From IMG/VR virus record IMGVR_UViG_3300031227_000348, positions 1 to 26,520 of that record: a stretch of DNA of 26,520 bases; one strand, given 5' to 3'. The stretch is from a virus. The notes beneath the pieces are model-generated. The model had not been told where the DNA came from. It saw only the letters and a program-made list of their open reading frames with translations, and did no database searches. Below, piece by piece: positions 9,681 through 23,735 of this stretch; position 1 is the stretch's first letter, and each line of letters starts with the position of its first letter. Both the position numbers and the translations under genes were made by a program.

Positions 9681-11195
9681 ATGGGAAATACAGATTTAAG
9701 TTCTTTAACTAAAATATTACATGATACGTTAAACAAGAAACATAAAACGCAAAAGGTTGCATATTTTCTCGATGAAGATATTTATACTCCTACTGATGTG
9801 AGGGACTGGCTAAGCACCGGTTCCTCAGTTTTAGATTTGGCAGTGGCAAATGTTCCTAATGGTGGAATTCCTTATGGTCGTATCACCGAGTTACAAGGTT
9901 TAGAGGGTTCGGGCAAGTCGTTAATTGGTGCACACTTACTGGCATCAAATCAAAAACAAGGTGGGATATCAATTTATATTGATACTGAAACATCCGTATT
10001 CAGACCATTTTTGGAAGTGATTGGGGTTGATTTAAAGAAATTGTTATATGTTCGATTAAGTTTGGTTGAGGACATATTTGAAACAATTGAGAATATGATT
10101 GTAAAAGTTCGAGAATCAAATAAGGATATAAAATTAGCCATTCTAGTTGACTCTCTTGCAGGGGCAACCACAAAGGTTGAACAAGAAAGCGATTATGATA
10201 AAGACGGGTGGAGCACTGCAAAGGCAATTATTACATCTAAGGCAATGAGAAAAATTAATGATATGATTGGAACACAAAATATAGCGTTGATATTTACTCA
10301 GCAATTAAGAGTTAATCTAGGAGTTACATTCGGTGACAAATATTGTGTTGACCCATATACAACAAAAATCAAAGTAAGGTATAATAAACAAGTAGAAGAA
10401 ATAGTAATAGCAGAATTCGCAGAAAGATTTATAGGAATTAATGATTTCATAACACCAGAAATATATGATTTATCAACGCATGATATAGAAATTTATGGAA
10501 AAAATCAAAAAACAGGAAAAGATTGTTACAATTCAATAAAAACTTTTGTTGTCAAGCCCTCTGTTGAAACATATTGGACAGATGGGAAACTTAATGGAAC
10601 AAATAAACATACAATTATTGAAAATAATAATAATATTTGCTTAGAGGATCATAAGGATTTTTCAAAAGTGAATAAAAAAATGGAAGTTGTTGATTTTGAA
10701 ATAGATGATAGTCACAATTATTATGCAAATGGTAGGTTAAATCATAACACCACAAGTGGTGGAAAAGCTCTTGGGTTTCATTCAAGTGTTCGTATCAGAC
10801 TTGACAAATCAACAAAAATATATGACAAACGAAAAGACTGTATTGGAATGAATATCAAGGCGAAAATTATTAAGAATAGATTAGGGCCGCCATTAAGAAT
10901 AGCAGTATTTCAAGTTTATTTTGACAGAGGAATAGACGACTTAAGCTCTTGGCTACAAGCATTAAAAGATAGAGATATAATCACTGTTGCAGGAGCGTGG
11001 TATTCAATAACACTTGAAGATGGTACAGTTAAGAAATTTCAATCAAAAAATTGGGGCGAAATTATGTCCGACAAAGCAATGTATGAATACATATATGGAT
11101 TATTATGTGATGCGTATATTATGAAATATAAACCGAAAGAAGTTATTGACATTGATGAAATTGTAATATCAGATGAAGCAATTGAAGGCGATTAA
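9681..11195 (+). CDS. uvsX: RecA/UvsX recombinase interrupted by a mini-intein
   Basis: The 504-residue precursor yields a recombinase of about 369 residues after splicing. GLEGSGKS (residues 73-80) is the Walker A motif. KLAILVDSLAG (151-161) is the Walker B strand and ALIFTQQLRVNLGVTFGDKY (202-221) corresponds to the L2/DNA-binding region. The extein resumes at TTSGGKALGFHSSVRIRL, matching RecA's TxGGxALxFxxSxR. The intein occupies residues 222-356. The protein drives strand invasion in recombination-dependent replication. All six Trp codons (five in the extein, one in the intein) are TGG. AGGAG lies 13 bases before the start; the 5' nuclease gene begins 3 bases after the stop, implying coupling. 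Confidence 0.9.
   Translation: MGNTDLSSLTKILHDTLNKKHKTQKVAYFLDEDIYTPTDVRDWLSTGSSVLDLAVANVPNGGIPYGRITELQGLEGSGKSLIGAHLLASNQKQGGISIYIDTETSVFRPFLEVIGVDLKKLLYVRLSLVEDIFETIENMIVKVRESNKDIKLAILVDSLAGATTKVEQESDYDKDGWSTAKAIITSKAMRKINDMIGTQNIALIFTQQLRVNLGVTFGDKYCVDPYTTKIKVRYNKQVEEIVIAEFAERFIGINDFITPEIYDLSTHDIEIYGKNQKTGKDCYNSIKTFVVKPSVETYWTDGKLNGTNKHTIIENNNNICLEDHKDFSKVNKKMEVVDFEIDDSHNYYANGRLNHNTTSGGKALGFHSSVRIRLDKSTKIYDKRKDCIGMNIKAKIIKNRLGPPLRIAVFQVYFDRGIDDLSSWLQALKDRDIITVAGAWYSITLEDGTVKKFQSKNWGEIMSDKAMYEYIYGLLCDAYIMKYKPKEVIDIDEIVISDEAIEGD
10344..10748 (+). other. UvsX mini-intein (cis-splicing, 135 residues)
   Basis: The intein begins with Cys (TGT 10344) right after the extein residues FGDKY and ends with the typical GRLNHN (Asn codon 10746-10748), followed by extein Thr. 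Both junctions restore the RecA sequence GVTFGDKY-TTSGGKA. The pre-C-terminal stretch VVDFEIDDSHNYYANG is the usual block F. At 135 residues there is no room for a homing endonuclease, so it is a mini-intein. It sits in the L2 DNA-binding region, a part where most interruptions would be lethal unless removed. Confidence 0.9.
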
Positions 11196-11198
11196 ACA

Positions 11199-12254
11199 GT
11201 GTCAATTAAAAAAAGTTATGCAGATATTTTAAAAGAACTATCTAAAGATAAAAAGCCAGAAAAACTTAACGATAAAGTTCTAATAGTAGATGGTATGAAT
11301 ACCTTTCTTAGAGCTTATGCAGTTTCGCCATCATCTACGGATGATGGCAATCATATCGGAGGCATTTCTGGCTTTCTTTATTCAATTGGCTATGCTATAA
11401 AGCGATTCACGCCAACACGTTGTATTATTGTATTTGATGGTGCAGGAGGATCGAAGCGAAGGAAAAAGTTATTCCCCGAATATAAAGCTCATAGAAATCC
11501 TACCAAAGCGAAGTACAACAGAGCATATGATTTTCAGGATGACGTAAATGATGAGAAAATGAAAGAATTACAGTTACAGCGTTTAATTGATTACTTAGAA
11601 GCATTACCTGTAACATTAATTTGTATTGATAATATCGAGGCTGATGATGCAATTGCATATATAACAACTTTAGATAAAGAAGCGAATTATACTATTATGT
11701 CAGCAGATAAAGACTTTTTGCAATTAGTTAGTGATAAAGTTAAAATTTGGAGTCCAACAAAAAAAGAAGTTTATACGTCACAAAAAGTACTTAATGAGTA
11801 TCAAATACACCCATTAAATTTCGCATTATTTAAGGCGATTAATGGAGACAAAAGTGACAACATTCCTGGTGTAAAGGGATTCGGGCCATCAACTATACAG
11901 AAGTATTTTAAATTTTTACAGAACAATAAACGTTACTGTATAGATGATTTAATTAGTGAGGCACAAAAATATGAAAAATCAAAAACATGTAAGCGAATGG
12001 TTGAGAGCAAAGAAATTTTAGATAGAAATTATGAACTTATGCAGTTGGAAACGTCAATAATATCTGGACAGACAAAACTAGACATAATTTCATTACTAGA
12101 TAATGAAATACCAATATTAAATAAATATCAAATTCATATCTATTCACTAAAGGACAAATTGTTTACTGTAATTAAAAATATTAACACCTGAATATTACTA
12201 TTCAATAAATTAAATTTATTTGCCGTTAAACATAACAAGTTAAAAGAAGAGTAG
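11199..12254 (+). CDS. 5'-3' exonuclease / flap endonuclease (T4 RNase H-like)
   Basis: Starts with GTG at 11199, three bases after the uvsX stop. In table 4 the terminal TGA at 12189 is Trp, and the protein runs on through ILLFNKLNLFAVKHNKLKEE to TAG 12252-12254 (351 residues). Metal-binding acidic residues sit in VLIVDGMN (D31), IIVFDGAGGSKRR (D80), IEADDAIA (E148, D149, D150), SADKDF (D170, D172) and NGDKSDNIPG (D217, D220). The last of these leads into a helix-hairpin-helix (VKGFGPSTIQKYF). The protein removes RNA primers and 5' flaps from Okazaki fragments. One TGA and one TGG codon occur. The C-terminal extension after the TGA is the only part that depends on the altered code. Confidence 0.88.
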
Positions 12255-13554: not shown

Positions 13555-14994
13555 ATGTCAGATACGTTAAACCAATTTGGATACTCGTTTCAATCAAAAT
13601 TAATAGCATCATTATTAATGAGTAAAACATTTTTGGAGCAAGTTAGTGATATTATTAAAGTTGAATATTTTGATTCAGAATCTAATCAATGAATTGTCGG
13701 AAAACAGTTAGAGTATTTTGAAAAATATAGAGACACAATGAGTCTGGATGTGTTAAAGACCGAGGTTAAAAAAGTAATAACCGGAGTCGACAAAGTTCAA
13801 ATTGTATCATCTATTAAGGATGTTTTGAAAAATTTAAAATCAACAGATTTACAATATATTCAAGATGAAGCAATAAAATTTTTCAAAAATCAAGAAATGA
13901 AAAATGCCATATTGGCATCGGTTGATTTATTAAAAGCGGGAAGTTATGATGATATATACGATTTGTTCACAGAGGTAATGAAAAAGGGTGAAATTAAAGA
14001 TGTTGGTTCTGCATACAAAAAAGATTTTGAGGAAAGATATAACGAAGCATTAAGAAAATGTATTATTACACCTTGGAATGTTATTAATGAGTTAACAGAT
14101 GGTGGGATTGGAACTGGCGAATTAGGTTGTATTATTGGTGGTCCGGGTACCGGGAAAAGTTGGTTGCTTGCAAATATTGGATTACACGCTTTATCATTGG
14201 GAAAAAAAGTATTGCATTATACGCTTGAGTTAAGTGAAGCTTATGTTGGTCTTAGATATGATGCAATATTAACGGGACTACAAACTCAAGATTTAAAATA
14301 TCATAAAGACGAAACAATCAAGAGAGTAGAACAATTAAAGGGCGATTTAACGATTAAGTTTTTTCCAACCTCTACAGCAAGCGTTCACACATTATATGCT
14401 CATATCAAAAAACATGAAATGTTAAGATTTAAACCAGACTTAATTATAGTCGATTACGGTGATTTATTAACAACAAAAGTGTTAAAAGGGCAGGATAATG
14501 ATTATCATATTGGTGGTAATATTTTTACAGAACTAAGAGGGTTGGCTGGTATATTTGAAGTTCCAATTTGAACCGCAAGTCAAGTTAATCGTGGCGGAGC
14601 CGAATCAGAAATTGTTCAAGGACATCAAGTTGCTGATAGTTATAAGAAAATTATGATTTCTGATTTTATTATATCATTATCGAGAACGGTCGAGGATAAG
14701 GTATCTGGGACAGGGAGAATACATATCATTAAGAATAGATTTGGACCTGACGGATTGACTTATGGTAGCTCTATTAATGCAGCCAATGGTAACTTTACGA
14801 TACATGACAAGGCCACAGCAGCCGGCAGAAAAGAAACAGAGAAGGCATTCAACAAAGATGGATTAAAAAGAGAATATTATAGACAAAAATTCAATGAATT
14901 AAACGGTGGCAAAGATGATAAGACTATCGAATCAGTTGAAATTAAAGATGATGAAAAAGATAATGATAAGAAAAAAAATGAAGCAAAAAGTTAG
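13555..14994 (+). CDS. Replicative DNA helicase, DnaB/gp41-like
   Basis: The true start is ATG 13555; the standard code would hide both the first ~60 residues and the C-terminal part because of TGA at 13690 and 14569. The 479-residue protein has IIGGPGTGKSW (Walker A, about residues 195-202) and LIIVDYGDLL (Walker B, about D300). Next comes PIWTASQVNRGGAES, the glutamine/arginine sensor segment of DnaB-type helicases, in which the Trp is a TGA. The C-terminus is charged and low-complexity. It unwinds DNA at the fork and is expected to act with a primase, which I do not see in the window. There are two TGA and two TGG. Genes called gp41 in other phages often carry split inteins; this one has none. 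Confidence 0.88.
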
Positions 14995-15037
14995 TATTCA
15001 TCCATATTTATATAAAATACTTAGGAGATTTTTATAA

Positions 15038-16450
15038 ATGAAAACAAGCGATAGAAGACAAATTGCATCTGATATTTTTTGTGAATATAGAGAACTATTC
15101 ACAGAATCAGGTATGCAAAATATTAAACAAATAGCGAAAGAGTATAAGAAAGCAGAAATGTGATTTCACATGGATCTTGATGGTATTGCAACTGCAATTG
15201 GTATGAAAGAATATCTAAAAAAATATGGCATTAAAGTAATAGGAGCTTATCCAATACAATATGGTGATAAAGAGTTTACAACACACAAAATGACACCCGG
15301 TATATTACATGTGTTAGTTGATTTTGCTCATTCAAAGCCAGACATAAGAATACATACTGATCATCACGATAATCAAACAGGTGTTGCAAAAAATGCCTCA
15401 AAATACTTTGTAAAGTCACCGTCAAATGCAACTGCAATCTCTGATAAAGTTTCGCCAAGTAAAATATTTACATCAACAGATTCTAAGGTTATTGATATGG
15501 TTGATTCTGCTGATTATGCCGTAAATGATATAACGCCAGAAAATGTAATGAATTCAGTATTCAAGTTAAGTAAAAAATTAAGTGTAGAAAGAAACAGTAT
15601 CTTTTTTGGTTTGGTTGTTAATAAAATATTATTATCGTTCAAAAACAAAAAGAATTTTCTATCTAATATAGTAATGAACTCAAGCCCATCACTAAAGAAT
15701 ATTTATGTTAATATGAAAAGTGAAGTCAATAAATTAGGCTTTGATATAAGTCAAATGAAAGCCGCAAGCGAAGACTATGTCAATAAATCAGCATCAAAAA
15801 AAGAAACTGACTCATTATATACAGAAGGAACAACAATAATGGTTAAAGGATTAACTGCAAGCGCAATGAAGCCCGGCTCTTATGATAGATATACTCCATT
15901 TAAGTTATATCCAGATGGTGATTTTATTTGTATAGCTTGATCAATGGGACTTGTACAAGTTGCTAAAAATCCATTCAAGAAGGCTGCAAATCCTTATCAT
16001 TTAGGTACAGTTGCTTTTGGAGTACTTCAAAAATTCAAGTCAACACTTGATGTTGAAATTAGTTTGGCTGATGTAAAGAGAAACTTTGAAATGAATATTA
16101 CAAAGGGCAAAACAATATATGCACCAAACAATACGATGAATTTTCAATTTGTTGATTTTGTTAATTTATTTAGTGATAAAATTAACATAAAGATGGATTC
16201 GGGATTTGGAAAGGCATTGCAAAGTATATCAACGAAAAATTATAAAAATTTATCGAACAAGCAAAGGGACGTACTAGATAAAGTAAAAATTTCTGTCTGA
16301 GATATTGTAAAGAAATCATCGGGCGGGCATAAAGATATAACAAATATATCTGGATTAAATTTTTACCCTCATGATATGTCGAAACTAACAACTGACATTT
16401 GGCACGCCTTGGGTAAAGAAATGAGAGATAAACATTTAAAAGAAGGTTAG
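15038..16450 (+). CDS. DHH-family phosphoesterase (RecJ/NrnA-like)
   Basis: With TGA=Trp this is a continuous 470-residue protein (TGA at MWFHM, AWSMG, VWDIV; one TGG, IWHA). FHMDLDGIATAIGMKEYL (D46, D48, G49) is the DxDGxxS/A motif that opens the DHH fold. VLVDFAH (D95) and IHTDHHDNQTG (D108, H109, H110) supply the other metal ligands. GLVQVAKNPF and the region after it fit the DHHA1-type substrate-binding part only loosely. The family includes single-strand exonucleases and nanoRNases. Its place behind the helicase suggests a replication or nucleotide-turnover role. An AGGAG site precedes ATG 15038, and the next gene follows 4 bases after the TAG. Confidence 0.8.
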
Positions 16451-16454
16451 CAAA

Positions 16455-17099
16455 GTGAAAGAAGAAAAATTAAGGGAAATAATTAAAAAAGAAGTTAAAA
16501 GCATGTTAAAGGAAAGCTCTTTAAGTAGAGTTTGGTGGCATAATCATGAACATGACTGTGGAGCTATAACGGCATATCGAGCGGCAAAAGATTGCGGTAA
16601 TGGCGAGAAATATACTCACAATGACAATAAAAAAAGAAACAAATCCTTACTAGCAAAATTGCAGAGCAAAGGATATGGTGTTACAAAGTTAGTTGGCAAA
16701 AGTAATGAAGGCGGAAAAATAGCAACAGAAATGTCATTTTTTGTGGTTGATTTAGAAGATTTCGGCACACTTGAGAAGGATTTAAAGAAATTTGGCGAAG
16801 CATTTGAGCAAGATTCGATATTATTTATTCCTAGAAAAGCGATAGAAAATGAAGCACAAGCATATTTGGTTGAAACAACTCACTGTTCAAATGCTTGGGT
16901 TGGATATGGTAAGAAAATGATATGGGAAAAAGGCAAAATAGGTATTGCAAGCAAAATTTACACATCTTATGTTGGTGGTAGACCATTTATATTTGAGACG
17001 GTTGAGAGTGATTTAATTAAACCTCCTGGAAATGGTTATGGCTGATGGGCATTACATACTATAGCGAAAAAAAATTGGCAAGATATAGCGGACGATTAA
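16455..17099 (+). CDS. Conserved hypothetical phage protein
   Basis: This 214-residue protein starts with GTG four bases after the DHH gene. The leader MKEEKLREIIKKEVKSMLKE is a helix ending in L-K-E. The body contains WWHNHEHDCGAITAYRAAKD, then NKSLLAKLQSKGYGVTKLVG, SFFVVDLEDFGTLEKDLKKF and EFEQDSILFIPR-like sequence (FEQDSILFIPRK). I associate this pattern with a widespread phage protein of unknown function. Six Trp codons are TGG and one TGA, with TGA TGG side by side at 17043-17048. Under the standard code the last 17 residues would be lost. No catalytic motif assigned. Confidence 0.65.
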
Positions 17100-17133
17100 T
17101 ATAATCATCATATAAAAAATAAGAGGTTTTAGA

Positions 17134-17685
17134 ATGAAAGTTTACAAAGGTATGTTATTACCAAAATACTATGACAATTGAAAAGTATATCATGGCAAAA
17201 CGAAACGATATTTTTACACTCCAGTAAAAAAACTATTCGGCAATGTTTGATTAACTATATATTATAAAAAGAATACACAATTTTATCGTAGAAAAGCAAT
17301 AGAATTTTTAATGAATTACGTTTCGATTGCAATTAATGAAGTAACAAGACTAGGTGACAAAACTTATTTAGAAGAAAAAAATATATCAATATTAAATGGC
17401 AGGAATACGTTATGAATTAATTGCTATTCAAAACAAGATAATACGTATATTGGCAATCCATACAAAGTAATGAAACTAATTGAAGATAAGGGTATTACAG
17501 AGTTTTACGGAGATGGATTGAATGATTTTGCAATAGTAGGATACAATCGCAAAGACAACAAATTATATCACTGACACAATTCTAATTTAATGGAAATAAA
17601 AACAACTGTAAGCCCAACAATCGAAAATATACAAATAATAGCAAAACAAATCAACGCAGAAATAGTGCGACAAAAAAGTAAATAG
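17134..17685 (+). CDS. Hypothetical protein
   Basis: A 183-residue protein hidden from standard-code gene finding by four TGA codons (DNWKV, NVWLT, TLWIN, YHWHN); there is no TGG. It is preceded by AAGAGG and ends at TAG just before the AGGAG of nrdJ. The first part is basic and rich in Tyr (YHGKTKRYFYTPVKKLFGN, then TIYYKKNTQFYRRKAIEFL). No family recognised. Its TGA-only use matches nrdJ behind it rather than the gene before it. Confidence 0.6.
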
Positions 17686-17694
17686 GAGAACTAT

Positions 17695-18564
17695 ATGTTT
17701 ATGAATGACTTTCAAAAAGAAATTTGAGTACAAAATTATAAATTACCTTCGGAAAAAAAAATACAAGATACATGATTAAGAATAGCAAAAGCAACCGCAG
17801 AGGTTGAATCTGACAAGAAATATTGAGAAAATAGATTTTATAATTTATTAGAGGACTTTAAATTTGTCCCAGGAGGACGAATTAATGCTAACATTGGCAT
17901 TCCAGATAGAAAAGGAACGACATTATTTAATTGTTATGTTCATAATCCAAAAGACATTAACTTTCCAGACCCAGATTCAATTGAAGGAATTATGGAAATG
18001 GTAAAGCGTCAAGCTCTCACGTTAAAATCAGAAGGTGGATATGGAATGAACTTTAGCTGAATTAGACCAGCAGGAACGTATATTAACGGCATAGGTGCAA
18101 GGACACCAGGCGTATTAAAGTTTATGGAAATGTGAGACAAATCATCTGAAATTATTACTATGGGAACTACAAAACGTTTTGGCAAAAAGGAAAAAAATGA
18201 AAAAGTCAAGATAAGAAAAGGTGCCCAAATGGGAGTTTTGAATTGTTTCTCGGAAAGTACTGAAATATTAACGAGCATGGGATGAATGGATATAATTGAT
18301 ATTATTAATGAAACGTTAGATGGCAAAAAAATACTAGCATTGGATAAAAACGGAAACCCTCACGAAATATATAATCCAATTATAAAAGAACCAGAACAAT
18401 TATACGAAATTGAAACAGAAAACGGCGCAATTGTACAGGTTACTGCTGATCATAAATTTGAAGTTTATAATATTAATACAAAAAAAACCTATCTAAAAGC
18501 AATTAATAATATTGATATCAATACAGAAATGATTACAACGATAGAAATTCAGGATGAAAAATAA
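17695..18564 (+). CDS. nrdJ: Ribonucleotide reductase class II, piece 1 + split N-intein
   Basis: This 289-residue polypeptide joins NrdJ residues 1-183 to a 106-residue N-intein and stops at TAA 18562-18564. The extein shows YWENRFYNLLEDFKFVPGGR, then FNCYVHN (C80, first redox cysteine), GGYGMNFSWIRPAGTYINGI, TPGVLKFMEMWDKSSEIIT and KIRKGAQMGVLN. Here the reductase sequence breaks, to resume in the next piece with [10 protein letters not shown]. All six Trp codons are TGA, and several fall at classic Trp sites of the family, fixing UGA=Trp. NrdJ makes deoxyribonucleotides from ribonucleotides using adenosylcobalamin. AGGAG before the ATG shows independent initiation. The peptide alone cannot be active. 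Confidence 0.93.
18244..18561 (+). other. Split intein 1, N-terminal half (106 residues)
   Basis: It begins at Cys (TGT 18244) after GAQMGVLN and carries block A (CFSESTEILTSMGWMDI) and block B with the TxxH motif (GAIVQVTADHKFEVYN). It ends with a stop instead of continuing to a C-terminal half. By residue count it has 20 acidic and 9 basic residues (net about -11), the opposite of its partner at 19605-19739 (net about +7). Charge complementarity of this kind is how natural split inteins find each other. Confidence 0.9.
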
Positions 18565-18628
18565 AAATTATTACAAAAAAATGTAGCATCCAGATATTTA
18601 TATGTAAAGACGAAAGGAGATTTACAAT

Positions 18629-19654
18629 ATGGAAGAAATTAAAATGTTGCAGTATAACCTATTACTTGATAGGAAAATATCAAAAAATAATCATAATGAA
18701 TATGTTGTGTGCCCAACTTGTAAGAAAAATATTACTTTTAACGGATGTACTTCACATTCAAAAATACATTCAGACATATTAATTGCAAAGAAAGCATTTA
18801 TAAAAAACAAATATTTATTTCAAAATTATTGTTTTTGTGGAAATGAAATATTTGTTCCCGAAAATATTAAAGATGCTAGACGAAAACATACTCATTTTTG
18901 TTCATCAGAATGTTATAATATAGCAAAAAATAAAGTTAAAAATTATTACAAAAAACAGCAAATGAAAAAAAAGTGTATAATTTGTGGTAAAGCATTCAAT
19001 GCTAATCATAAAGACACTAAAACATGTTCATATAATTGTTGAATAAAATTATTATCAATAAAAACAAAAAATGTATGAAATAATAGAACTGATATTGAAA
19101 TTTCAGAAAAAATTTCTTCCGGATCATTGGGTAAAAAAGGATGCAAAGCGTGAAACAAAGGTCTTACAGGAAATGACTATATGAAACATTACATAGATGA
19201 GAATGGAAACAATAGTTTTTATGAAGCATTATCAAAAAATGACAAATGGTTTAGAAAAACAAGTATTGAAAAAAAATTTGAAGATTTATTGGAAAAATTA
19301 AATGCAAATTATCAATATAGTTTCTTTACACAGAATTCGCAATTTGATTTTTTAATTTCAACAAATAATTTCGTTTATATAATAGAGTTAGATGGAGATT
19401 ATTGACATAAATCAAGAAGATTATTTCCAAACGAAACTGACAGGGAAATGAAAAGATTAGAGGATAATCTTAAATCGAATAAAATAAAAAATATAATTAA
19501 TACTAAAAAAAACTGAATTGTATTGAGAATTTGAGAATACGATATAAATAACAACTTTGGTATTATTGAAGAATGAGTTAAAAAATTACTAAAAGAGGAA
19601 AAAAATGACGAAACAATATACGAAATTAAAAAGAATTACTCCAATTGAAGTTAA
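18629..19654 (+). CDS. Vsr-like homing endonuclease inside split intein 1
   Basis: A 341-residue protein with its own GAAAGGAG site, readable only with eight TGA as Trp (one TGG). The N-terminal half has three Cys-rich zinc-finger-like motifs (CPTCKK...HSKIH; YCFCGN...HFCSSEC; CIICGK...CSYNC). Next is a NUMOD-like SGSLGKKGCKAWNKG at ~165-177. From ~210 a Vsr/PD-(D/E)XK-like nuclease domain has FDFLI (D240), VYIIELDGDYWHKS (E253, D255, H260), a D271 helix and IVLRIWEYDI. It matches the endonuclease family described for fractured genes with split inteins (Dassa and co-workers, 2009). It would cut nrdJ alleles that lack the insertion. Its 3' end overlaps the start of the C-intein reading frame by 50 bases. 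Confidence 0.88.
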
Positions 19655-19739
19655 TAAATCATATGACTTTGCGGTTAAAGATAGTCACAGAATAATTGCC
19701 AGGAAAAAGAATACAAATATTGGCATTTATACATCAAAT
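19605..19739 (+). other. Split intein 1, C-terminal half (45 residues)
   Basis: It contains [16 protein letters not shown] (block F) and ends GIYTSN before extein Cys (TGT 19740). The penultimate residue is Ser, not the usual His, as in the DnaE split inteins, whose C-halves end in ASN. It is basic (10 Lys/Arg against 3 acidic), complementary to its acidic partner. Confidence 0.88.
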
Positions 19740-21407
19740 TGTTGACATCCCGATATCGAAGAATTTATTATAGCAAAACAAACGCAGGGAAGATTAACAA
19801 AATTTAATTTATCAGTAGGAATTACAAAGGGTTTTATGAACGCTGTTCAAAATAATGAAATGTGAGAATTAAAATTTCCAGATACTCAATTTGAAAAATA
19901 TAAATCTGAGTGAAATGGTGATTTAGAAGAGTGAGAAGTAAAAGGCTATCCAGTGAATGTTCACAAGAAAATTAAAGCCACAAAATTATGAGATATAATC
20001 ATGTTCTCTACATATAATAGAAATGAACCAGGAGTATTATTTTTAGACTTGGCAAATAAATTAAATACAATACCGAAAAGTGAAACATTACAAACCTCGA
20101 ATCCCTGCGTTACTGGAGATACTATAATTAGTACAGATAAGGGCGACATTACAATAGAAGAATTAATCAAGAATGGTATTAATAATTACAAAGCTTTGAC
20201 ATACAATACAAAAACCAATAAAACAGAATGAGAAAATATTGTTTGGGGAGATAAGACTAGAGATAACGCAGATATTATTCAAATTGAACTTGAAAATGGT
20301 AAAATTTTGAAACTTACGCCAGACCACAAGGTGTGAACTGAGAATAGAGGATATGTAAAGGCATCAAATTTGACAATACATGATGAATTAGTTACAAATA
20401 AAATGTCTCAAGAATATATTAAAAGAATGGAAGCAATTAAAAAAATAAAAATAAAAAAAATAAGTATAATTGAAAACGAAAATGTTTATGATATTACTAC
20501 AACTAAAAATCACAATTTTTTTGCAAACAACTTATGTGTTCATAATTGCGGGGAGGTGATTATGTCAACTGGCGTATGTAATTTAGGTTCATTAAATCTC
20601 GTAAAATTTATAAAAAAGAACAAATATACAAACGATATATATTTTGATTGAGAAATGTTTAGTGAAAATGTTGAAACTGCTGTAAGATTTCTTGATAATA
20701 TTAATGATATATCAACAACACCTTTGCCAGAATATGACAGATCTTTAAAAGATAAGAGGCGAATTGGTCTAGGAGTTATGGGACTTGGTTCGATACTACT
20801 GATGTTGAGATATCGTTATGGTTCAGAAAAAGCAAAAGAGTTTTGTGAAAAATTATGAAATTTAAAATCATCAACTGAAATTTTAACTTCGGCGAAACTT
20901 GGAAGAGAAAAAGGTTCATTTAATCTATTTAATAAAGATGATTATTTTAATACATATTGGTGAAATAATTTACAAATTAGTGAAGAAACAAAAAAGAAAA
21001 TTAAAGATGTTGCTTGTATGAGAAATAGTCATAGATCGGCGAATGCTCCCACGGGAAATTGTGTTAGGAAAAACACAAAAATTCAAACAAAAGATGATAT
21101 AAAATCAATTGCTCAAATCTTTAAGGAAAACAAAATTGACATATTAAAAGAAGAAAAAAATCAATTTTTTCTTCCAATAAAAACAATAGAGGTTAAAACT
21201 TTGAATGGATATAAAAAAATTATTGGACTTTATATAAATAATAATAATAAAGTATATTCCATTAAAACAAACAATAATAATAAAATTGAAGGAACAAACG
21301 AACATAAAGTCTTAGTTAAAATTGATAATAAAACAGCAAAATGAATTGAATTACAAAATTTAAAAGTAGGAGATAAAATTTTATTAGAAAAGGGACGCTC
21401 ACATTAA
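19605..21407 (+). CDS. nrdJ: NrdJ piece 2: C-intein 1, extein, cis-intein 2, extein, N-intein 3
   Basis: A 600-residue polypeptide with its own GAGG site. Residues 1-45 are C-intein 1. Residues 46-167 are NrdJ ([46 protein letters not shown]) and 168-314 an internal intein. Residues 315-485 are NrdJ again: [18 protein letters not shown] with the catalytic Cys and Glu of NPCGE and the second redox Cys, then GLGVMGLGS and [11 protein letters not shown]. Residues 486-600 are N-intein 3, ending at TAA 21405-21407. Eleven Trp codons are TGA and two TGG. The piece must splice at both ends and in the middle to contribute to an active enzyme, so the three reductase cysteines come from two different translation products. 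Confidence 0.92.
20106..20546 (+). other. Contiguous mini-intein 2 in NrdJ (147 residues)
   Basis: It begins at Cys (TGC 20106) after TLQTSNP and ends LCVHN before extein Cys (TGC 20547). Blocks are visible: [20 protein letters not shown] (A), [20 protein letters not shown] (B, with TPDH) and [17 protein letters not shown] (F). It has no endonuclease. Removal restores NPCGEV, so the insertion lies exactly in front of the catalytic cysteine. One TGG and two TGA codons occur in it. Confidence 0.92.
21060..21404 (+). other. Split intein 3, N-terminal half (115 residues)
   Basis: It begins at Cys (TGT 21060) after ANAPTGN and ends at a TAA. Block A is [20 protein letters not shown], and block B-like sequence is [14 protein letters not shown]. 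It is basic (24 Lys/Arg against 13 acidic, net about +11), whereas its partner at 22458-22598 is acidic, the reverse of split intein 1. Confidence 0.88.
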
Positions 21408-21446
21408 TATTTATACACATAAAAAAATTAAAGGTAGGTGCTTTGA

Positions 21447-22457
21447 GTGAAAAAGAAAAGAGGAAAGTACAGAAGTTATAAAATGAGAATATATGAGGAA
21501 AACTCAAAAGAAGTTGCCGATAAATTATGACAAGATTATTTGTCAAAAATATCTCAAAATTTAAATGGTTTTATAAAAAGATATGGTGAAGAATTGGGCA
21601 AAAAAAAATATAATTCATTTATTGAGAAGTCTAAACATACAAAGGCTAAATACATTAAGAAATATGGTGAAATTTTGGGTAGTAAAAAATGAAACGCTTA
21701 CATTCAAAAGAAAAAAGAAACATCTAAAAGAAGTATTGAATATTGATTAAAAAAATATGATGACGATTATGAATTGGCAAAAATTGCTCAATCAAATCAT
21801 CAAAAAAGAGATATAGACTTCTTTATTAAAAAATATGATAAAGAACTTGGTGAACAAAAATATAATCATAAGATAGAAAAACAAAGAAAATCAATAAATG
21901 AGCATTACAAGCTTCCCGGCGCCAAAAAAGCTCATGCGGTATCTATAAAAAAAATGATAAAGAAATATGGTAAAGAACTTGGTGAACAAAAATATAAAGA
22001 ATATTTATTAAAAACATAACCAAGTATAATTTGAAAGCGATCATCTGTTTCAAATGTTTCGCAAAAATTTTGTAAAATGCTTGAAAATAATATTAATAAA
22101 GAAACAAAACAATATATAAAATATGCAACAAAAAATGATGAATGATGGATTTATGACTCTAATAACAAAAGATATTTTTTTTATGATTTCACAATAATTA
22201 AACATGATAATAAAAAGATAATAGAATTTAATGGAGATTTTTGACATGCAAATCCAAATATTTATACCGAAAATTGAAACCATAAAGTATTAAACACAAC
22301 GGCAAAAAATTTATGAAAAAAAGATGAATATAAGCATAATTTAGCTCGAAAAAATGGTTTTGATATATTAATTATATGAGAAAAAGAATGAAGAGATAAT
22401 AAAGAAGACGTTATTAAAAAAAGTATGAATTTTATAAATAATATTAAGGAGAAATAA
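21447..22457 (+). pseudogene. Vsr-like homing endonuclease inside split intein 3, cut by in-frame TAA
   Basis: One reading frame runs from GTG 21447 to TAA 22455-22457, broken only by TAA 22017-22019. The part before (190 residues) holds about five repeats of the type IKKYGEELGEQKY (near 21570, 21655, 21745, 21820 and 21955), a DNA-binding array style known in phage endonucleases. The part after holds the nuclease domain: KKIIEFNGDFWHANP, then NLARKNGFDILIIWEKEWRD, the same Vsr-like core as the 18629 gene. Ten TGA and one TGG are used. A fresh start at ATG 22077 could still express the nuclease domain alone, but without a ribosome-binding site. I read this as recent decay by a nonsense mutation; a sequencing error is the alternative. 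The final stop abuts the ATG of nrdJ piece 3 (TAAATG). Confidence 0.75.
21839..21997 (+). repeat. Two 27-base direct repeats in the second endonuclease
   Basis: Bases 21839-21865 and 21971-21997 are identical, 132 bases (44 codons) apart, and encode the same KELGEQKY unit. They reflect the tandem protein repeat and would favour recombination or slippage in this decaying gene. Confidence 0.85.
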
Positions 22458-22598
22458 ATGGAAATTATAAATATTGAAAATTTAGATCTAATTGAAGAAG
22501 AAATTCAATCAATTAAATTAATTAAAGATGATACATACGATATAGAAGTTGAGGATGTTCATCATTACATTTTAAGTAATGGAATTATATCACATAAT
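22458..22598 (+). other. Split intein 3, C-terminal half (47 residues)
   Basis: It contains DDTYDIEVEDVHHYILSNG (block F) and ends GIISHN before extein Thr (ACA 22599). It is acidic: 12 Asp/Glu against 2 Lys, net about -10, complementary to basic N-intein 3 and opposite in sign to C-intein 1. Confidence 0.9.
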
Positions 22599-23735
22599 AC
22601 AGGAATTTATGCTGGCATAGTATCTGGTGGTATCGAACCTGTATTTATGAAGCAATATACACGTTGATCAATTGTTGTGGATAATGATAAAAGAAAATTG
22701 CTAGAGAAAGGTATAAAATTTCCTGATACATCATTACAAGAATGATTTGAAACTGATGTTTTTAAATTTAGTAAACGTGGTGATGAACAGATTTTAAGAG
22801 CAACGATTGATGATACAAATTATGAAATTGATAAAAATAGAGGATTGATAAAGGCAACTGATGTAATTGATTATGGTTATAAATGACTAAAGGATAACTT
22901 ATCAGAGGAAGAGTTTGAAGCATTGGATGAATATACTTTAGGAACTACAACGACATTAACGGTAGATGAACATATTGATATTTTAAATATCGTAAGTCAC
23001 TATACTGATATGAACTCTAGCAAAACGGTAAATTTGCCAAATGATTACCCATATAATGATTTCAAAAAATTATATATGAATGGATGAGAAAATAACATAA
23101 AAGGCTTGACGACATATAGAGCAGGTACTATGACTGCTGTATTAGAAGAAAAGAAAGAAATTGTAAAATATCAAACTGAATTGGAGAAAATGTTTATAGC
23201 TGCCAATGGTAATGTTATTGAAGAAAATGTAAAAATTCCAACGGAATACTTTTCCAAAGGATATGTTATAAAAGATAGAAATAAGAAAAAATGATATTTT
23301 AATGTTGCTTTCGCTGATAGTTCATGTAAGAAACCATTTGCTTTATTTATTACAACAAATGGAAGAACAAGAGGCGAAGTTGCTGATAATGTTATAGAAA
23401 CCATGGAAGTTCTGCTTAGGAAAAATAAAATCAGTGAAATTTTAATTGATAGACAAAAAGAAAAATGTGCAAATGAGAGCAATATAAACAAAGTTGCAAG
23501 GTCTATCAGTATGGCACTAAGACATAATATATCTATAGTTGATATTGTTAACGTATTGGATACTTGCCATGATGGGTTTGCCACTGTATTGTTTGCAACT
23601 AAGAAAATTTTAAGCAAATTTATACAAGATGGAGCAAAAATAAAAGGAGAAAAATGCCCTAATTGCGATAGGCGGACTTTGATTTACCAAGAGGGCTGTG
23701 TGATGTGCAGTAATTGTTCGTGAACTAAATGTTAA
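22458..23735 (+). CDS. nrdJ: NrdJ piece 3: C-intein 3 + C-terminal reductase
   Basis: A 425-residue polypeptide with AAGGAG before ATG 22458. Residues 1-47 are C-intein 3. Residues 48-425 start TGIYAGIVSGGIEPVFMKQY, which continues the SAPTGT-type motif broken in piece 2 (APTGN-TGIYAG). They include NLPNDYPYNDFKKLYMNGW and GLTTYRAGTMTAVLEE, and end with a zinc ribbon (CPNCDRR...GCVMCSNCSWTKC), as usual for class II reductases. All six Trp codons are TGA; the one near the C-terminus would remove the last three residues in the standard code. The three exteins add up to about 854 residues. The stop overlaps the start of a 39-residue frame. Confidence 0.93.

Follow-up and report, generated by a model that had tools for sequence, protein, structure and literature searches.

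A phage class II ribonucleotide reductase gene in three frames, with two predicted split inteins and one contiguous intein

Genes fractured by split inteins, together with free-standing Vsr-type endonucleases, were reportedly described from metagenomes by Dassa and co-workers in 2009, in work cited in PMC3653736. Among phages, single fractures are known in ribonucleotide reductase or polymerase genes (PMC7891396, PMC6892783), and several contiguous inteins or introns have been found within one gene (PMC3322345, PMC7886860). Here, we analyse the ribonucleotide reductase gene nrdJ of the IMG/VR virus record IMGVR_UViG_3300031227_000348, using the complete record of 26,520 bases (hereafter the window). 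The gene lies in three consecutive reading frames, and we consider it likely (probability about 0.86) that a single NrdJ would be made from three precursors by two trans-splicing events and one cis-splicing event, as an earlier note on this DNA had proposed. This assembly is supported by profile scores, by exteins that agree exactly with those of intein-free relatives, and by a sister phage in which the arrangement is conserved. Note that the window and the related records compared with it are fragments.

Three frames for one NrdJ

The locus occupies positions 17695-23735 on the + strand, which carries all features described below, and was read under code 4 (UGA = Trp). Polypeptide 1 (17695-18564, 289 aa), polypeptide 2 (19605-21407, 600 aa) and polypeptide 3 (22458-23735, 425 aa) each have a start codon and a stop of their own, and each is preceded by a purine-rich ribosome-binding site (taggagaactat, aaaagaggaaaaaa and ttaaggagaaataa, respectively). 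Three inteins, here called S1, S2 and S3, interrupt the enzyme at the junctions GVLN/CWHPDIEEF, NP/CGEV and APTGN/TGIYAG. Both the frames with their sites and the junctions are as the earlier note gave them. Removal of the intein parts leaves four extein segments. The first, e1 (17695-18243, 183 aa), is the N-extein segment and includes the cysteine of the FNC motif, Cys80; e2 (19740-20105, 122 aa) runs from CWHPDIEEF to TSNP; e3 (20547-21059, 171 aa) runs from the catalytic Cys306 to APTGN; and e4 (22599-23735, 378 aa) is the C-terminal segment, with a TSCPD-like region and a C-terminal Cys motif. Together they sum to exactly 854 aa, the length that had been estimated for the assembled enzyme.

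The spliced protein scored 436.5 bits against the NrdJ_Z profile TIGR02504 (curated cut-off 399.95; E = 1.6e-130), with residues 21-654 aligned to positions 20-601 of the 606 in the model. It also matched the solved B12-dependent reductase 1xje (E = 7e-59), and the catalytic motifs FNC (residues 78-80), NPCGE (304-308) and VCNLGS (at 315) are all present. These results support the proposed identity of the spliced product as a class II (adenosylcobalamin-dependent) ribonucleotide reductase, NrdJ, of predicted activity. At the three junctions, the uninterrupted NrdJ of LR756502 (locus L004, from a 642-kb phage) reads GAQMVTMSCWHPDIEEY, TNPCGEQ and QPTGNSSVFA; thus, the exteins neither lack nor gain a residue at any of them. 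The earlier note had counted gaps of that kind, or a second intact nrdJ elsewhere, as findings that would speak against its proposal. The alignment to the intein-free relative is complete, and no second nrdJ occurs in the 26,520-base record or in the 39.6-kb contig of the sister phage, both of which are fragments, so that genome-wide absence is unproven.

The sister contig (IMGVR_UViG_3300035698_007205, here L007) is similar to the window across most of the neighbouring genes, typically at 60-80% identity. Its reductase is fractured by S1 and S3 at the same places, although the protein is ~25% diverged (e1 is 83% identical). Among codons aligned between the two records, TGA was paired with TGA 52 times, with TGG 22 times and with Gly codons 0 times. 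Because TGA pairs with TGG and never with Gly, UGA is read as Trp, in line with the recoding that the earlier note had ascribed to this phage, and a reading as Gly (code 25) is ruled out. Searches of the window and of related stretches turned up no tRNA.

Inteins, proposed assembly and alternatives

The split intein S1 consists of an N-half of 106 aa (IN1, 18244-18564), which begins with Cys1, carries TADH as block B and ends at a TAA stop, and a C-half of 45 aa (IC1, 19605-19739), which ends in YTSN ahead of Cys+1. In S3, the N-half (IN3, 21060-21407, 115 aa) has TNEH as block B and a TAA stop, and the C-half (IC3, 22458-22598, 47 aa) ends in ISHN ahead of Thr+1. An endonuclease gene lies between the halves of each. 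By contrast, S2 (20106-20546) is a contiguous mini-intein of 147 aa, placed directly 5' of the thiyl-radical Cys of NPCGE; its nearest solved intein is NrdJ-1 (PDB 8ubs, E = 1.3e-24). An intein N-terminal model was matched by all three (S1, E = 5e-9; S2, E = 1.6e-17; S3, E = 2e-8), and a C-terminal model by S2 and S3. Cys1, block B TxxH and the terminal Asn are kept throughout, followed by Cys (S1), Cys (S2) and Thr (S3) as +1 residues. At S1 and S3, stops between the intein halves break the host gene into separate open frames. Both fit the residue criteria for class 1 split inteins, S1 without the penultimate His, and are therefore candidates for trans-splicing. Profiles and residues thus bear out the earlier description of two outer split inteins, each with an endonuclease gene between its halves, and a contiguous middle one, except that the endonuclease gene within S3 (HEG2) carries a nonsense codon.

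We propose that precursor 1 (e1-IN1), precursor 2 (IC1-e2-S2-e3-IN3) and precursor 3 (IC3-e4) would be joined as follows. IN1 with IC1, and IN3 with IC3, would each fold into an active intein and ligate their exteins in trans, and S2 would leave in cis, which would restore the catalytic NPCGE motif. The product, in the order e1-e2-e3-e4, would be the 854-residue NrdJ. Splicing, enzyme activity and pairing specificity are all predictions from the sequence. Three observations weigh against this assembly. IC1 did not reach the intein C-terminal model in the profile search; S1 ends in YTSN, so that Ser occupies the penultimate position where His is usual, though the sister phage has the same ending; and HEG2 is interrupted in frame by a TAA at 22017, a position held in L007 by a Ser codon within a single frame of 337 aa.

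Selection was assessed from dN/dS values (Nei-Gojobori) between the window and L007, at a synonymous divergence near or above 1. Values for the exteins were 0.08 (e1), 0.16 (the second part of e2), 0.26 (e3) and 0.12 (e4); the short first part of e2 was left unscored because its synonymous sites were saturated. The intein halves gave 0.09 (IN1), 0.17 (IC1), 0.13 (IN3) and 0.014 (IC3), so that selection constrains them to about the same degree as the enzyme itself. The endonuclease genes gave 0.19 (HEG1) and 0.21 (HEG2). Since L007 shares both fractures and all scored pieces are under purifying selection, neither decay nor an assembly error explains the locus.

A reductase that had become a pseudogene, eroded by selfish endonucleases, would fit the nonsense codon in HEG2, a frame disruption just after the S2 Cys in a related contig (L028) and the degeneration proposed for Campylobacter phage nrdA (PMC3653736). 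It is hard to reconcile with extein segments that are all in frame at dN/dS values of 0.08-0.26 despite such synonymous divergence, with intact catalytic residues or with a profile score above the curated cut-off, and we consider it very improbable. That the frame breaks are false products of assembly or sequencing is barely credible. The TAA of HEG2, a single-codon difference from L007, is what such an error might look like; however, the same two fractures occur in the independent and well-diverged sister contig, and those of three further relatives (L026, L027 and L028) are identical in contigs labelled from different metagenomes.

Phage reductase genes can also be interrupted by introns (PMC3653736), and a group I intron lies in the nrdJ of another relative (L030, 8615-8843, 70 bits). 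The breaks might accordingly be self-splicing introns with endonuclease genes, joined at the RNA level. The Rfam search that detected the L030 intron found none of the group I type in the window; neither there nor in L020, which belongs to the same contig as L007, did any intron reach the threshold. The breaks thus do not represent any recognisable kind of RNA intron, and group I introns are rejected as their cause. Moreover, every piece starts independently, with a ribosome-binding site of its own, and the flanks of the breaks encode intein halves; joining at the RNA level is exceedingly improbable.

A gene in pieces may also work without any splicing, its three polypeptides assembling non-covalently while the intein halves remain as inert tails. 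Phage Aeh1 provides a precedent in its NrdA, split by mobE (Friedrich 2007, as described in PMC10448857). L007 itself has a further break in the e2 part of NrdJ (16379-17642), accompanied by an endonuclease gene and by a small frame that stands apart. The tails flanking this break form no recognisable intein, so the L007 gene may be a non-covalent gene in pieces at this point; the tail searched, which might alternatively be a dead intein, had no informative match besides the reductase itself. At the fractures of the window, however, the splicing residues are kept at all junctions, the intein halves are under strong purifying selection, and the breaks fall exactly at conserved active-site codons rather than in a tolerated loop. 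S2, furthermore, stands directly before the thiyl-radical Cys, and a working active site needs its removal. We judge non-covalent assembly improbable, if slightly less so than decay, and favour assembly by splicing.

Two split inteins in one gene raise the question of pairing. An IN1-IC3 mispairing would skip the middle segment, and pairing of IN3 with IC1 would circularise or polymerise it. Net charges are opposed between the two pairs, at -11 (IN1) and +7 (IC1) against +11 (IN3) and -10 (IC3), and L007 has -12, +7, +11 and -12 in the same order. The within-pair segregation of charge gave p = 0.008 and p = 0.002 by shuffling, and IC1 and IC3 have low identity (12/38). Split-intein association has been described as electrostatic capture between an anionic N-half and a cationic C-half (PMC11766414), and the sign of the halves can go either way, depending on the intein (PMC12707363). 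If halves are captured in this manner, like-charged non-cognate halves should avoid each other, and the opposed polarity of S1 and S3 would be a likely discriminator against both mispairing and circularisation of precursor 2.

We tentatively extend this to a natural orthogonal three-segment trans-splicing system, in which polarity would set the order of segments and block circularisation, and new split inteins would be filtered for compatibility, allowing successive fractures; we rate this idea at somewhat under even odds. Two findings from relatives count against it. S3 has the same polarity in relatives that lack the S1 fracture (+12/-12 in L022 and +11/-10 in L031) and so did not evolve it to match S1. 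The doubly fractured L030 lacks opposite polarity, so that the pattern is not a general requirement. At most, charge polarity would act as a compatibility filter, not as a rule.

Endonuclease genes and mobility among relatives

HEG1 (18629-19654) is a Vsr-type homing endonuclease gene with a Cys-rich, zinc-finger-like N-terminal part. Its residues 209-304 matched the vsr model TIGR00632 (E = 2.9e-5, below cut-off), and its last 50 nt lie over the start of polypeptide 2. The frame is intact and 70% identical to its counterpart in L007, and the product is a putative active endonuclease. HEG2 (21438-22457) matched PF18741 (E = 2.7e-4, below cut-off). Its TAA divides it into open frames at 21438-22019 and 22077-22457, and could be either real or a sequence error.

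We suggest that S1 and S3 are mobile units, each combining a split intein and a homing endonuclease gene, which would insert at conserved active-site codons, the frame break around the endonuclease gene leaving the host gene in pieces. For S3-type units, mobility can be seen in a pair of relatives. Around nrdJ, L005 (LR756501, 735 kb) and L031 are ~92% identical in DNA. At the empty S3 site, L005 reads ...caaccaactggtaac/agttcc..., and L031 carries a clean insertion of 1,689 bp, comprising IN3, endonuclease gene and IC3, placed exactly where the Asn codon of PTGNS meets the Ser codon. The split intein and the endonuclease gene thus travel as a single unit.

Relatives form a graded series, from an empty site through contiguous inteins to split inteins whose endonuclease is fused, separate or absent, and on to genes with at least two fractures. 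The nrdJ of LR756502 has no insertion, and that of L005 has a contiguous S2. A split S3 with an endonuclease occurs in L022, and in L031 together with contiguous inteins in e1 and at S2. In L021 (6460-10014), S2 is contiguous and S3 is split, with the endonuclease fused to the N-half in one frame of 1184 aa, which shares 14 nt with the frame of the C-half; this fusion is a possible intermediate in fracture. L034, L035 and L037 have a split S3 without an endonuclease. L030 has a contiguous S1 with S2 and S3 both split. In three contigs that also read UGA as Trp (L026-L028), S2 is broken, S3 is split and a further split intein lies in e4 (NSSK/TVN). NrdJ of L028 (5391-13013) is thus in four pieces, with the frame disruption mentioned above; L026 has the same arrangement, as does L027 over the length that its contig covers. 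Overall, the split S3 intein recurs in L021, L022, L026-L028, L030, L031, L034, L035, L037 and LR756500. The combination that the earlier note had called unusual, two fractures plus a third intein, is indeed present, but it is not unique, since L007 has it and L030 has two fractures at another pair of sites.

IN1 had no match among 50,697 phage records; an S3-type N-half matched one 462-kb phage record, with nrdJ fractured at S3 and an endonuclease gene between the halves. Scans with alignments of e1+IN1, HEG1 and IC1 returned only the sister contig or distant matches, and a scan of genome contigs with IC1+e2 returned no genes other than contiguous or uninterrupted ones, so that the split form of S1 is known from two records only. 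A scan of viral contigs with polypeptide 2 alone returned nothing, probably because the patterns held Trp codons affected by the recoding.

In the enzyme tree, the window, L007 and L028 grouped with full support; the signal in the S3-intein tree was too weak to test co-inheritance. L006 is syntenic with the window (neighbours ~60-80% identical) and has a different NrdJ (14271-16958), 27-41% identical and with a contiguous S2 only, which suggests that the whole nrdJ gene was replaced.

Several further inteins and introns were observed in these phages. The group I intron of L030 lies just 3' of the S2 split-intein junction, beside the second split intein, and this nrdJ is predicted to combine RNA splicing with protein splicing. 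The large S2 intein of L037 ends (at ~9030) in NGCSVAR/CGE, without the usual terminal Asn, and may not splice. In L007, the gene for the replicative helicase DnaB is fractured by another split intein (11039-11650; ASQAQR/CHILSD... and ...YSHN/SSAESE), with a short endonuclease remnant between the halves; the helicase gene is intact in the window. RecA of the window (9681-11195) contains a contiguous intein of 135 aa (~10344-10748, CVDPYTT...RLNHN/TTSGGKA) that the RecA proteins of L006 and L007, both close relatives, apparently lack.

Comparison with described systems

Fractured genes are themselves known, and what appears to be new here is the predicted natural assembly of three segments by two split inteins. 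We found no description of a gene joined by two natural split inteins in the literature searched, which did not cover the loci of Dassa 2009. This is of evolutionary interest, as the relatives span many steps from an empty site to a multiply fractured gene, including a fused endonuclease and an empty/occupied allele pair, so that one can directly test how split inteins and broken genes arose. Such genes are likely overlooked or annotated as pseudogenes, especially in recoded phages.

The closest resemblance is to the loci of Dassa 2009, in which an enzyme gene is reportedly likewise broken by a split intein with a Vsr-related endonuclease gene between the halves, ribonucleotide reductase is among the hosts and the setting is phage. 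Unlike those loci, the nrdJ described here combines a contiguous intein with two fractures in a single gene, giving three precursors, and the N-half of S1 is without a match in the phage records searched. The NrdJ-1 split intein (8ubs) sits in the same kind of host protein as S2, but NrdJ-1 is split and S2 is contiguous. AceL NrdHF (PMC7891396) is also a fractured, phage-like reductase gene with an endonuclease between the halves; it differs in encoding the beta subunit and in having one fracture, a class 3 intein and a GIY-YIG endonuclease.

Other phage genes share parts of this architecture. The nrdA of Campylobacter phage IBB_35 (PMC3322345) has two inteins in one reductase gene, as here. 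In the related CP220, however, the nrdA matches fall within one open frame of 905 aa; Campylobacter nrdA is thus unfractured there and ruled out as a precedent for several polypeptides. Recoded genes of crAss-like phages (PMC7886860) hold several inteins or introns, but their fragments result from group I introns or in-frame inteins, not from two split inteins. Aeh1 NrdA, by the account of Friedrich 2007 cited in PMC10448857, is likewise a phage reductase broken by insertion of a homing endonuclease; its peptides are there said to cooperate unjoined, without splicing, whereas intein residues are conserved at both fractures of the window. The scheme itself has a counterpart in engineered tandem trans-splicing (PMC12707363), in which three segments are joined by two orthogonal split inteins and charge complementarity guides pairing. 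That system is a laboratory design; the present locus would be a natural version of what protein engineers have built, and its two intein pairs of opposed charge polarity are ready candidates as tools.

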